From Methanobrevibacter sp. (lineage in GTDB: Archaea; Methanobacteriota; Methanobacteria; Methanobacteriales; Methanobacteriaceae), in NCBI GenBank assembly GCA_024689425.1, contig JAILDN010000033.1:1-64000 (forward strand): DNA of 64,000 nucleotides, read 5' to 3'. Of this stretch, positions 22,091 to 60,509 are shown in pieces. Made by a program: the position numbers and the translations under genes. Positions within the stretch are counted from its first letter, which is position 1. Each line of letters begins with the position of its first letter. The notes below the pieces were generated by a model, which worked only from the letters and a program-made list of their open reading frames with translations, made no database searches and was not told where the DNA came from.

Positions 22091-23740
22091 ATGAAAAGTG
22101 ATAATATTAAAAAAGGAATTCAACGAGCTCCCCACAGGTCTTTATTGAGAGCTTGCGGATTAGGTGACGATGATTTTGAAAAGCCGTTCATCGGAATAGC
22201 AAACAGTTTTACTGATATTGTTCCCGGCCACATCCACCTCAGAGATCTTGTTGAATTTGTAAAAGAAGGTATCATAGCTGCCGGAGGTGTCCCTTTCGAA
22301 TTTGACACAATGGCAATCTGTGATGGAATCAGTATGAATCACGAAGGAATGAAATATTCACTCCCTTCAAGAGAAATAATAGCTGCAACGGTTGAAAGCA
22401 TGACAAAAGGACATGCTTTTGACGGGTTGGTATTAATTCCTAGCTGTGATAAAGTCGTTCCGGGTATGATTATGGGTGCTTGCCGCGTAAATATCCCAAG
22501 TATTGTTGTTACTGGCGGACCAATGGCAGCGGGAAATTACAAAGGAAAAAATGCTGATTTAATTACTGTCTTTGAAGCCGTTGGAGAATACTCCGCCGGA
22601 AAAATTCCAGAAGAGGAAGTTTATGAAATGGAGAAATGTGCTTGTCCGGGTCCTGGAAGCTGCTCCGGATTATTTACGGCAAACACAATGGCCTGTATTT
22701 CTGAAACATTAGGTTTATCTCTTCCATTATGCGCAACAACCCATGCCAATACCGAAGAAAACAATAAAATGGCTTATGAAAGTGGAAAACAAATTATCGA
22801 ATTAGTTAAAAACGATATAAAACCATCTGATATTTTAACACAGAACTCATTCAATAACGCTATTGCAATAGACATGGCCTTAGGTGGTTCATCAAACACT
22901 GCACTTCACATTCCTGCAATCGCAAGTGAAGTAGAAGGCATCTCTGTTGATTTAGAATTATTTGACAAAATCAGCCGTGAAATTCCACATATTACATTAA
23001 TTTCACCTGCAGGTGAAGATACGATGATGGACTTGCACTTGGCTGGAGGAATTCCTGCAGTTTTAAAAACATTGGAAAATAAAATTGACACTACTCCACT
23101 TACAGTAACGGGCAAAACAATCGAAGAAAACCTTAAAGATGTTGAAAATAAAAATACTGACGTTATTCACACATTGGATAATCCATATCATGAAGATGGT
23201 GGAATAGCTATTTTAAAAGGTAATATTGCTCCAAACGGCAGTGTAGTTAAAAAAGGTGCAGTTGCAGAGGAACTAATGCATCTTAAAGGACCTGCCAAGG
23301 TATATCATTCCGAAGAAGAAGTGACAAAAGCTATATTCAATCATGAAATTGAAGAAAGGGATATTGTCGTGATTATCTATGAAGGTCCAAAAGGCGGTCC
23401 TGGAATGAGAGAAATGTTAAATGCCACTTCAGCATTAGCAGGAATGGGAATTAAAGATGTCGGCCTTATAACTGACGGAAGATTCTCCGGAGGAACTCGT
23501 GGCCCATGTATAGGACATGTTTCACCTGAAGCAATGGCATCCGGACCAATTGTGGCCGTTAAAAATGGAGACATTATTGAAATTGACATTAAAAACAGAT
23601 CCATTAATGTGGAACTGACCGATGAAGAAATAGCTGAAAGATTAAAATCTGTAAAACATCCGAAAAGTGATGTTGATGGTTGGTTAAGCATTTATCAAAA
23701 ATTAGTTCAGTCTGCAGACAGTGGAGCTATTTTAAGGTAG
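22091..23740 (+). CDS. ilvD: Dihydroxy-acid dehydratase
   Basis: [36 protein letters not shown]. Confidence 0.97.
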
Positions 23741-38481: not shown

Positions 38482-39600
38482 ATGAGCACTTTGGAAAAAA
38501 TGAAAATACTGACAGACTCTGCACAATATGATTTATGCGATTATGTAAATCACAACAAGAGTTCACAAGTCAATTTACCTGGAATCTATCATGCAACAGG
38601 ACACAATGGCTGTCAGATTCCACTTTTCAAAACGCTCTTAACAAACAAATGTAAAAATGATTGTAAATACTGCATCAACCAATCAAAAAGAAACTTTACA
38701 AGACTTGAACTGTCACCAAACGAACTTGCAAAGGCCTTTCTCAACTATTATAATAGGGGATTGGTAAACGGACTGTTTTTAAGCTCAGGCATCGATAGGG
38801 ATGAAGATCTCACAATGGAAAAAACAATCGAAACAATCAGAATATTGAGAAAAGATTACGGTTACGATGATTATATCCATTTAAAAATAGTGCCTGGAGC
38901 ATCAAAAGATTCAATTAAAAGAGCAATGTCTCTTGCAAACAGAGTAAGTATCAATATAGAAGCTGCAACAGCCTCCGGGCTTGCGGAACTAACATCTACC
39001 AAAGATTATAATAAAGATATTTTGAAACGCCTGCACTGGATTGACAGTCTACATGGCAAAAGTACAACTTATCCAAATTCTACACATACAACACAACTGA
39101 TTGTCGGTGCGAACAATGAAAGTGACAGGGAAATTCTACGGAGAATGGAAAAAATATACAATAAAACTAAATTGAAGAGAACATATTTCTCTGCATTCTC
39201 ACCAATTGAAGAAACAGAATTTGCGAAAAAAGAGGCTTGCAGTACTGACAGAACGGCAAAATTATATAATGCGGATAGTTTACTTAATGATTATAATTTT
39301 AAACTTGATGAACTTGTTTTTGATGAAAACAACCAACTTTCATTAACTCAAGATCCAAAGATTTTAGCAGCTGAAAACATGAATATATTTCCTGTAGAAA
39401 TCAACACCGCACCATTTATTGAGCTGATTAGAGTACCTGGAATAGGTGTAAAATCGGCAAGAAAAATTATATCTATTAGGAAAAAAATGCCTTTCACTAA
39501 TAAAAATGAGCTAAAAAAATTAGGGGTAATAGTGGAAAGGGCTGAAAAATACATCAAAATTGACGGTAATTTCCAAAGTCTATTGGATAATTTTGAATGA
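38482..39600 (+). CDS. Radical SAM protein with helix-hairpin-helix C terminus, putative DNA modification/repair type
   Basis: CKNDCKYCINQ radical SAM cluster; PFIELIRVPGIGVKSARKIISIRKK HhH. Confidence 0.85.
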   Translation: MSTLEKMKILTDSAQYDLCDYVNHNKSSQVNLPGIYHATGHNGCQIPLFKTLLTNKCKNDCKYCINQSKRNFTRLELSPNELAKAFLNYYNRGLVNGLFLSSGIDRDEDLTMEKTIETIRILRKDYGYDDYIHLKIVPGASKDSIKRAMSLANRVSINIEAATASGLAELTSTKDYNKDILKRLHWIDSLHGKSTTYPNSTHTTQLIVGANNESDREILRRMEKIYNKTKLKRTYFSAFSPIEETEFAKKEACSTDRTAKLYNADSLLNDYNFKLDELVFDENNQLSLTQDPKILAAENMNIFPVEINTAPFIELIRVPGIGVKSARKIISIRKKMPFTNKNELKKLGVIVERAEKYIKIDGNFQSLLDNFE

Positions 39601-39602
39601 AA

Positions 39603-40160
39603 TTATAGATTGTCAAATAATTTCCAAATATCAGGATATTTTTTTGATACGGCTTCATCTATAAGAATAGATGCTTCCCTACTGATACTGAATTCCGGCT
39701 CAGTTTTCCTTAAATATCTAAATACGGCAGCAGATCTGGATGACCACAAGGTTATTCTTGGATTTTTATCTACAATATCTAAAACTTCAGCTACATTCTC
39801 CTGTTTCTTAATTTCTTGTGTATCAGATAAGTCTTCTTCATAATCATGATTGCTAGGTAAATCTTCGGATGTTTGAGTATCTTGCGTGTCATTCGTTTGT
39901 ATTTCATTATCGGATGCTTCTTCCTCTTCTTTTTGAACTTCAATATCTTCTTCAACATTTTCATCAACTACACTAGAATCACTAGTATCATCTACACTAG
40001 ATTCACTGTCTACCTTATCGGAAGTAGAATCAGTCTGTAAAGAATCTTGATTATCTTCTTTTAACATGTCTTCTAAAGATTGAGCACCATTACTATCAAA
40101 ATCCTCATCATAATAATCAGGAATTAAAGAATCTAACCCTTTTCCAAGACCGCCTGGCAT
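39603..40160 (-). CDS. ParA-partner protein with ParB-like N-terminal motif
   Basis: MPGGLGKGLDSLIP start, acidic D/E/S-rich linker, ~60-aa helical C-terminal domain; 33 bp downstream of parA. Confidence 0.6.
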   Translation of the reverse strand: MPGGLGKGLDSLIPDYYDEDFDSNGAQSLEDMLKEDNQDSLQTDSTSDKVDSESSVDDTSDSSVVDENVEEDIEVQKEEEEASDNEIQTNDTQDTQTSEDLPSNHDYEEDLSDTQEIKKQENVAEVLDIVDKNPRITLWSSRSAAVFRYLRKTEPEFSISREASILIDEAVSKKYPDIWKLFDNL

Positions 40161-40193: not shown

Positions 40194-41024
40194 TTAAATT
40201 TTTTGTATACCTCTACTATTTATATTAATTTCACTCATAGAAACCTTATTGTTCTGTTCATCTCTTTCTAATATTTCTTTTGCCAATTTTAAATACGCAT
40301 TAGTTCCAGTACTTTCTGGATCATAAATCAAACAAGGTTTTCCAAAACTAGGTGCTTCTGCTAAACGTATGTTCCTAGGAATAATTGTTTTAAAGAGTAA
40401 ATTTGTTCCACCGAAGTAGCTTTTCAATTCTTTATGGACATCTTTACTTAACCTAGTTCTCTTATCATACAAAGTAAGCAAAATTCCCTTAATTGGGGTA
40501 GGGCTCCTGAGTCTTTTTTCAACAAGTTTGATAGTATTTATCAAATCAGCAACACCTTCAAGTGCATAATATTCCGCTTGAATCGGTATCAATACACTAT
40601 CTGAGGCCACTAATGCATTTACGGTGAGAACACCTAATGAAGGAGGTAAATCGATGAATATGTAATCAAAAAGTGGAATAACGTCTTTAAGAGTGTCTTT
40701 CAATATAATATGATAATTTTCTTTTTGACTTAACTCTACACCCGCTCCACTCAATGAGATATTGCTTGGGACAATGAATAAATTTTTTATAAAAGTTGGG
40801 ATAGTTGCTTTTTTAACATTGATATCCCCTATAATTGCATCATAAATTGTGTTTTGCAATTCGTTTTTATCGATTCCAAAACTTGTTGTTGCATTAGCCT
40901 GAGGATCCATATCGACAACTAAAACAGATTTTCCCATGACCGCTAGAGAAGTTGCAGTGTTTACAACAGTTGTTGTTTTTCCACAACCTCCTTTTTGATT
41001 CATTACGGCTATTACTTCACTCAT
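40194..41024 (-). CDS. parA: ParA/Soj family chromosome partition ATPase
   Basis: NQKGGCGKTTTVVNTATSLAVMGKSVLVVDMDPQANATTSFG; IFIDLPPSLGVLTVNAL. Confidence 0.95.
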   Translation of the reverse strand: MSEVIAVMNQKGGCGKTTTVVNTATSLAVMGKSVLVVDMDPQANATTSFGIDKNELQNTIYDAIIGDINVKKATIPTFIKNLFIVPSNISLSGAGVELSQKENYHIILKDTLKDVIPLFDYIFIDLPPSLGVLTVNALVASDSVLIPIQAEYYALEGVADLINTIKLVEKRLRSPTPIKGILLTLYDKRTRLSKDVHKELKSYFGGTNLLFKTIIPRNIRLAEAPSFGKPCLIYDPESTGTNAYLKLAKEILERDEQNNKVSMSEININSRGIQKI

Positions 41025-41050
41025 TAAATAATTCTCCTGATAAGTCTGAA

Positions 41051-41512
41051 CTTTAAGTTAAAAGGGTTATAAATAACCCTCTAACTTAAATGAGATAAAT
41101 TATAAGTTAACATGAATAAGTTAAAGTTTAAGTTAAAAGGTCTAACAGTAGATGTTAAACCTTAAAACTTATTGAGATAAATTATAAGTTAACATGATAA
41201 GTTAAAAGAAATACCTTAATACTTGTAAATTATCGCCTAAAACTTCTAAGTGAGCGGGTAAAACTTACAATTGATAAGTTAAACCCCCAAACTTAAAAGT
41301 GATAAATTTTAAGTTAGCATGAATAAGTTACAAGAGATAACTTTTAACATTTAAGTTATTATAAATAAGTTAAAAGATTTAAGTTTTAACTATTAAGTTA
41401 TATTTTATAACTTCAACCTTATAAAGTATTTGTTTTCACAGATAAGTTATTAGTTATAAGTGATAAGAAATAAGTTATTATTAGTTATAAGTGATAAGTT
41501 ATAAGTAAAAAA
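41051..41512. repeat. Iteron-like repeat array upstream of parA (candidate centromere/operator)
   Basis: About 16 TAAGTT plus 4 AACTTA hexamers; three ~43-bp units at 41083, 41166, 41290; TTAGTTATAAGTGATAAG at 41450 and 41481. Confidence 0.8.
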
Positions 41513-48285: not shown

Positions 48286-48335
48286 AATTATAAGTTATAA
48301 GTGATAAGTATCAAAAACTTATAAGTTATAAGTAA
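48286..48335. repeat. Satellite copy of the parA-upstream iteron
   Basis: AGTTATAAGTGATAAG at 48293-48308 identical to 41452 and 41483; also ACTTATAAGTTATAAGTAAAT. Confidence 0.65.
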
Positions 48336-48414
48336 ATAATCCGGCTTAAAAAAAACCAAGTTATATAAATATTAAAAAATAAATCTATATTTATTATATT
48401 TATTAGGTGTTTTA

Positions 48415-58108: not shown

Positions 58109-59036
58109 AATTTTTAAATTAAAAAACATCATTTCAATTAAAGATTTTGAAAGATTAGACATTGACTATATATTGGAAGAAGCATCAAAATTAGAGAATA
58201 TTGCTCAATCAAAAGAAGTTTCAGAAGAATTAAAAGGAAAAATATTAGGATTAATGTTTTTTGAACCGTCTACAAGGACAAAATTGTCATTTGAAACTTC
58301 CATGAAACGTTTAAGCGGACAATGCATCGGCTTTGAAAACACCGGTTCTTCAAGTGTATCTAAAGGTGAAAGCATTGCCGATACCGCGAAAATGTTTGAA
58401 GGATACAGTGATGCTTTGGTAATTAGACATGAATTGGAAGGAGTATCAAAATTCATTTCCGATATAGTGGATATCCCTGTCATTAATGCAGGCGACGGAT
58501 CAAGTCAACACCCAACCCAAACACTACTCGATTTATACACAATTAAAAAAGAACTCGGCTCAATCGACAACTTAAAAATAGCATTGATAGGAGATTTGAA
58601 ATTTGGACGTACAGTACACTCCCTAGCCAATGCATTAGGATTATACGAAAATGTAGAACTATACTTTGTTGCACCGAATGAACTGAAAATGCCGCAAGAG
58701 GTTCTTCATGATTTGGATGAAATGAACATGTCTTATACAGAAGTTTCAAAAATCGAAGAGGTTATTGACAAAGTAAACGTCTTATATGTTACCAGAATTC
58801 AAAAAGAGCGTTTTGCTGACATTGAAGACTATCTACAAATAAAAGGTGCTTATAAAATAAATAAAAAAATGTTAGAAGGTAAGGATTTAATTGTAATGCA
58901 TCCTTTACCTAGAATCGATGAAATCGATGGTGATGTTGATAATACGAAATACAACAAGTATTTCACCCAAGCAGCAAATGCTGTACCTGTGAGAATGGCA
59001 ATATTGAAAACATTAATAAAAAACAACCCTAAATAG
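58101..59036 (+). CDS. pyrB: Aspartate carbamoyltransferase catalytic subunit (TTG start)
   Basis: [36 protein letters not shown]. Confidence 0.96.
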
Positions 59037-60183
59037 ATGAAAATAAACTTGATTCAAGTAAATCCTCATCACATTGCAATTTAATAATGTTGGTTCTGCC
59101 CTTTCCACGTCCACGTGAAATAGTATTTGTTGAAATAATACCAAGCATTTCAAGCTCGTTGATAAAGTCAAAGATTCTTCTGTAAGTTACGGCATCTTTT
59201 TTAGAAACTTCAGTATATGCTTCATATAATTTTCCAGAAGTAATTTCTTCTTTTTCATTTGTTAAGTTTAAAATAGCTTCAAGTACTCTTTGCTGTTGTG
59301 TAGGAAGTGTTTTTACAACATCAACAAATTTATCATGTTCTATTCTATCTTTAGCCATTCTTACATGTTCACTTTTAATAGTTTCAGTGCCTTCTTCTTC
59401 AGCTATAAATCCAGAAGTTTTTAACAAGTCAAGAGCAAACCTTGCATCCCCTTCCTCTTTAGCAGCCATTGCGGAACACAATGGGATAACATCCTTTTCA
59501 ACAACGTTTTCCTTGAAAGCCAATTTAGCCCTATCATTTAAAATATCCGTTAACTGATCTGCACCATAAGGAGGGAAAACAATTTCCTTATCATTCAAAC
59601 TACTGGTAACCCTAGACTTAATTAATCCTTTAAAGTCAAGGAAATTACTAATTGATAAAATTGAAACATTGTCCGTTCTAGTTAATGTGTATAAAATTCC
59701 GTCCCCATCTTTATTAAGCAATATATCAATTTCGTCTAAAATAACAATTAAAATGAGTTTTTTTCCAAAAGCATTAGTTCTGAAAATATCACGGAATGTA
59801 TTGACAACTTCCGCTTTGGTCCATCCCCTATGAGGAACATCACGGCCAAGTTTTTGACATAATTGAGCTAGAACCTGATATTCTGTTGTATAATCGGTAC
59901 ATCTAATATATTCAATTTTAATAAAGACGTCCTGGTCTGCTGAATACTCTAAAAGTTGTGAACGAGCAAATTTTGCAGCCGCAGTTTTTCCTGTTCCAGT
60001 TTTACCGTAAATTGTAATGTTTGATGGTGTAACATCATTTAATGCATCAACCCAATATCTTGCAATTTGTGTAACTTGATCCTCCCTGTGTAATAACTTA
60101 TCTGGTAAAAACCTATGATCTAGTGGTTTTTTATCCTTAAATATTAAATTTTCTTTCTGAATATTTTCGAAAATATTGCCCAT
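59029..60183 (-). CDS. cdc6: ORC1-type DNA replication initiator (Cdc6/Orc1)
   Basis: [44 protein letters not shown]; winged helix. Confidence 0.96.
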
Positions 60184-60230
60184 TTTCTCACCTATAAAAA
60201 TTATAAAAAATAGAAAAATAACATAAGTAT

Positions 60231-60494
60231 GATTTCCAGTGTTAATATATAAACAAGCTCTTAAATAAAGTTTTTCATTGTAAAATTGATATGATATTAA
60301 AATATTACCTAAAATTGAAAAAATAAAAACTGATAAAAATCAATTAAAATTAAAATAATAAACTAAAAAGTAATATTATTATAAACATGAAATGAATATT
60401 TATTTATTTTAAATTTAAAAGAATATAATCAAATTAAAAAAATAAATATGTGGAGTAGCATTTCAAATAAAAGGGTAGTATTTCAAATGTAAAA
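60231..60494 (-). promoter_or_regulatory. ORB-like elements upstream of cdc6
   Basis: Minus strand TTAACACTGGAAATC (60231-60245), TTTTACATTTGAAATAC (60478-60494), degenerate TTTTATTTGAAATGC (60458-60472). Confidence 0.4.
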
Positions 60495-60509
60495 ATTATA
60501 TGATAATCA

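Follow-up and report, generated by a model that had tools for sequence, protein, structure and literature searches.

The DNA analysed here (the window, a stretch of 64,000 nucleotides) likely carries a euryarchaeal SegAB segregation system, in which SegB combines a ParB-type tail with an archaeal ribbon-helix-helix (RHH) domain and a lattice of heptads upstream of segA is the candidate centromere. We also favour, with only moderate confidence, a more general scenario for Euryarchaea: a bacterial-type ParA would work with an RHH protein to which a ParB activation tail has been fused, and this protein would coat an origin-proximal heptad-lattice centromere. As part of this chimeric scenario, and with the same reserve, the lattice would be a kind of centromere not described for archaeal chromosomes.

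Identification of segAB

The system is encoded on the minus strand by two adjacent genes, with these features:

39603–40160, minus strand: segB, 185 aa (open reading frame, homology to SegB in the PDB, genome counts)
39606–39791, minus strand: C-terminal RHH domain, residues 124–185 (PDB homology, conservation, weak Foldseek ranking)
39795–40118, minus strand: residues 15–122, an acidic linker with predicted disorder (pLDDT)
40122–40148, minus strand: ParB-type ParA-binding motif LGKGLDSLI, residues 5–13 (conservation, profile search)
40194–41024, minus strand: segA, a ParA-type Walker ATPase gene directly upstream of segB (open reading frame, homology, pocket residues)

The preliminary description had the right open reading frame for segB, but its coordinates covered only the N-terminal third of the gene. 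The layout that it gave is borne out: a GLGKGLDSLIP start, then the acidic linker, then a compact domain at the C terminus. The gene starts with an ATG, its N terminus reads MPGGLGKGLDSLIPDYYDEDF, and a GGAG lies 7–11 bases 5' of the ATG. Together with the start position common to the orthologues, this makes the use of a different start codon, raised in the same description, unlikely.

The C-terminal domain is, as judged by sequence, a homologue of the RHH domain of Saccharolobus solfataricus SegB. Searching the PDB with phmmer, we found S. solfataricus SegB with residues 101–182 and 124–182 (7duv, E=1.6e-6; 7dv2, E=1.1e-5), and a Thermococcales relative matches it at E=5.4e-11. The model of the domain has a pLDDT of 85, and a Foldseek search of the PDB ranks three SegB chains first, with weak scores. 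The AF2 monomer model contains helices and no beta strand; RHH proteins pair their strands between the two subunits of a dimer. This homology rejects a new C-terminal fold and puts the RHH domain of SegB in place of the new DNA-binding or oligomerisation module initially suggested. It also identifies the gene pair as a euryarchaeal segAB. SegB itself is a known family, and segAB has already been documented in Euryarchaeota (PMC5120986, PMC12284271). Pfam and NCBIfam scans of the SegBs examined gave no family matching at a meaningful score, in agreement with the expectation that the protein would be annotated as hypothetical and would lack the ParB DNA-binding domains. Fold searches with the full-length SegB model and against a viral structure library returned only noise. 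A match to McdB (6noy, E=0.17) falls on the acidic linker and was judged to be low-complexity noise.

Between its two ends, SegB is predicted to be largely unstructured: pLDDT is low over most of the region preceding the C-terminal domain, and about 43–52 over most of residues 41–110. In an alignment of 33 diverse SegBs, all invariant positions are in the tail (L5, G6, G8, L9) or in the C-terminal domain, and none in the linker. The orthologue alignment proposed as a check thus confines conservation to the two ends. Linker length varies by species, and the proteins range from 94 aa (little beyond tail and RHH domain) to more than 300 aa.

We found a SegB match in 142 of 154 genomes of Methanobacteria, the class of the source genome, including 87 of the 92 of good quality; the source genome has a single one. 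As expected for SegAB, segB lies directly downstream of segA. The pairing is found in Methanobacteria (including the named relatives Methanobrevibacter, Methanosphaera and other Methanobacteriaceae), Archaeoglobaceae, and one Thermococcales genome. The two genes are 33 bp apart in the window and −1 or 0 bp apart in most of the genus. The SegA of the window has 276 aa, for a genus median of 259, and the extra length is C-terminal. Convergent with segB, at 38482–39600, is a gene for a TIGR03916-type radical SAM protein with a putative role in DNA modification or repair, whose score is below the curated cut-off. One Archaeoglobaceae genome (G055) has a second segAB-like pair (L082/L110), with the tail KGKGIDALLP and a strongly divergent C-terminal domain.

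A heptad lattice upstream of segA

41040–41511, minus strand: candidate centromere or operator, heptad lattice AA[C/G]TTAT (repeat counts, spacing)

The 518-bp gap upstream of segA contains 20 copies of AACTTA, against at most three in any other 500-bp bin of the window, and the array spans about 470 bp. Its unit, AA[C/G]TTAT, corresponds to the 7-bp palindrome TAA[C/G]TTA in uninterrupted tandem copies. The 114 segA-upstream regions, which are unevenly sampled, dominated by the window's own genus (g1), and thus not independent, contain 699 TAACTTA sites for 57.6 expected. Among their same-strand ACTTA distances, 660 out of 746 are multiples of 7, against about 9 out of 60 in dinucleotide shuffles; outside the upstream regions, the fraction is 60 out of 135. 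The common inverted ACTTA distances all share one phase of the same 7-bp lattice. One genome (G049) has no TAACTTA site in the 350 bp before segA, and in genera g23–g27 (e.g., L063–L065) the segA-segB gaps of 29–451 bp may hold further copies.

The Sulfolobales SegB core, AGA[C/G]TCT, is present in one of the 114 upstream regions and absent from the array of the window. It does not define the family as a whole, since it is a Sulfolobales site that is reportedly degenerate in a euryarchaeon (PMC12284271): Thermococcus sibiricus, the only euryarchaeon analysed, has degenerate sites only and none near segAB. The canonical parS, TGTTTCACGTGAAACA, has only one match with two mismatches in the window (at 23518; 0.43 expected by chance). 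In the open-licence literature, the scope of our search, we found no report of the lattice, of SegB sites in methanogens, or of a ParB-type tail on SegB.

Lattice sites away from segAB

48286–48338, no strand assigned: second site with the heptad lattice, lying between genes, upstream of gatA and 7 kb away from segAB (20-bp pattern)
59029–60183, minus strand: orc1/cdc6 replication initiator gene, marking the likely origin region (homology)

A 20-bp lattice pattern has 10 matches in the window, for 0.06 expected, and these occur in two places only: the array and positions 48288–48338. Allowing up to two mismatches, we found 86 matches in nine genomes, against three for the reversed control. In three of these genomes (G046, G048 and G049; 1.2–1.7 Mb), the listed sites, once merged, group as 5, 4, and 6 sites within 75, 72, and 63 kb, respectively (P=2e-5, 3e-4, and 2e-6, computed after the clusters had been seen). 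Sites are more scattered in some other genomes (G029, G134).

The segAB locus is less than 50 kb from the best orc1/cdc6 match in 14 out of 17 genomes and 20 kb from it in the window; the distance is 200–310 kb in G038 and G049. An AT-rich gap adjoining orc1/cdc6 (60184–60509) may hold the origin. A canonical ParB was found above the cut-off in none of 15 genomes, and the source genome has no TIGR00180 match.

These results bear on two other readings of the lattice. SegB could repress its own operon from an array that is an autoregulatory operator and no centromere, self-repression being usual for many RHH partition proteins. The array of highest density immediately precedes segA, and the second site is also intergenic, both as expected for an operator. 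Each junction of the lattice forms a TTATAA, so that part of it may indeed act as a promoter or autoregulatory operator. Yet further sites lie at a distance from segAB, clustered within 63–75 kb in three genomes, and the 470 bp of the array exceed the usual length of operators. We therefore regard an exclusively regulatory array as rather unlikely; a regulatory role of the sequence upstream of segA may coexist with that of centromere. It is very unlikely that the lattice is bound by a protein other than SegB, such as one of the nucleoid proteins or Orc1/Cdc6, which binds origins. The proximity of orc1/cdc6 in most genomes would fit the latter, but the lattice is found upstream of segA across the class, and G038 has lattice sites just upstream of segAB even if the locus is 310 kb from orc1/cdc6. 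Moreover, archaeal origin boxes differ from the lattice in sequence.

The ParB-type tail and the pocket of SegA

The N terminus of SegB had been described as ParB-type, and a profile search agrees. An HMM built from 22 SegB tails and searched against all PDB chains ranks residues 3–18 of Thermus thermophilus Spo0J first (E=3.5e-4), followed by residues 5–20 of a ParB chain (6t1f, E=0.076). Every one of the 44 distinct SegBs of the genus carries the motif, as do nearly all the others once lineage variants are counted. Among the full-length SegBs from Methanobacteria, Archaeoglobaceae, and Thermococcales, only one LGKGI variant departs from LGxGL. In the 64 kb of the window, a degenerate DNA pattern encoding LG-x-GL-D/E-S/A-LI has a single occurrence, for 0.01 expected, which, together with the ranking of Spo0J and ParB, rejects a chance motif. 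SegB has been described as evolutionarily unrelated to ParB (PMC12284271).

The partner ATPases have apparently kept the other side of this contact. The SegA of the window scores 245 bits against bacterial ParA (8ray) and 67 against S. solfataricus SegA. In Myxococcus xanthus, the tail motif binds a pocket of the ParA dimer, its hydrophobic residues providing the binding and its central R/K the ATPase stimulation (PMC12462528). We mapped the pocket residues given in that study onto 119 SegAs using an alignment of SegA with bacterial ParA. L150 and L187 are identical in all 119, L192 is a leucine in 118, and V116, L152, and L155 correspond, with a single exception, to hydrophobic residues. All 119 conserve Y81 and E117. 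This mapping assumes that chain 8ray is M. xanthus ParA, in keeping with the D-to-A change of the chain and with its residues at every position cited. The SegAs thus seem, from sequence comparison, to retain the ParB-binding pocket of bacterial ParA.

The central K/R of the tail is more variable. It is replaced by Met in all seven members of genus g2 (L074, L164, L166–L170) and all three of genus g29 (L069, L159, L160), and by Leu or Asn in individual genomes outside these two genera; L057 and L071 are also among the SegBs with Met or Leu. In the 13 cases with Met, Leu, or Asn, which represent few independent events, the partner SegAs systematically lack the acids at E82 and D110 and keep Y81 and E117. 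Given the replacements in the tail, activation of SegA cannot depend on the central K/R everywhere. Since the M. xanthus R13A mutant binds ParA but almost loses ATPase stimulation (PMC12462528), the lineages without K/R would activate SegA differently or not at all.

That the tail resembles ParB by convergence or chance and makes no ParB-style contact with SegA is highly improbable: the motif is short and its K/R is replaced in some lineages, but Spo0J and ParB are ranked first in the PDB, the pocket is kept in the partner SegAs, and the tail core is as invariant as the DNA-binding domain, while a convergent origin alone would leave a shared mechanism possible.

A model for segregation

Taking the lattice as a centromere bound by SegB, we infer the following model. 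RHH dimers of SegB would probably bind the AA[C/G]TTAT heptads side by side and coat the lattice, both in the array that precedes segA and at a small number of sites in the surroundings of segAB and the origin. Their tails would then reach ATP-bound SegA on the nucleoid, where the central K/R, when present, would trigger ATP hydrolysis by analogy with ParABS. Repeated cycles of SegA would move the sister origins apart.

If the tail works as in ParB, the step triggering the ATPase would be common to bacterial and archaeal segregation, with an exchange of the DNA-binding half. The definition of the heptad lattice provides a testable candidate for an archaeal centromere in methanogens, and the lineages with Met or Leu in the tail are natural mutants for the study of the activation mechanism.

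Comparison with known systems

The SegAB of Saccharolobus/Sulfolobus (7duv, 7dv2) has the same organisation: a gene for a ParA-type ATPase followed by one for a small protein that is unstructured at its N terminus and ends in an RHH domain. Its sites lie both close to the operon and at other places of the chromosome (PMC12284271), as do the candidate sites described here. The Sulfolobales core AGA[C/G]TCT resembles TAA[C/G]TTA in being a 7-bp palindrome around a central C/G; the two differ in sequence, and the core does not match the heptad lattice. The stimulating peptide and the SegA surface of S. solfataricus reportedly differ from the bacterial ones (PMC12462528), whereas here the tail is of the ParB type and SegA is closer to bacterial ParA.

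The omega/delta system of pSM19035 also uses an RHH centromere-binding protein, together with arrayed 7-bp repeats that occur in either orientation (PMC9178275). The system described here is chromosomal and archaeal and has another heptad sequence; its SegB carries the chromosomal ParB motif that omega lacks (PMC12462528).

Compared with bacterial ParABS, SegB has neither the ParB/Srx CTPase domain nor the helix-turn-helix, and the window has no canonical parS. It shares with Spo0J/ParB the N-terminal LG[K/R]GL..L motif, matched by the pocket in ParA, and its candidate sites, like those of ParABS, cluster near the segregation genes and usually near the origin.
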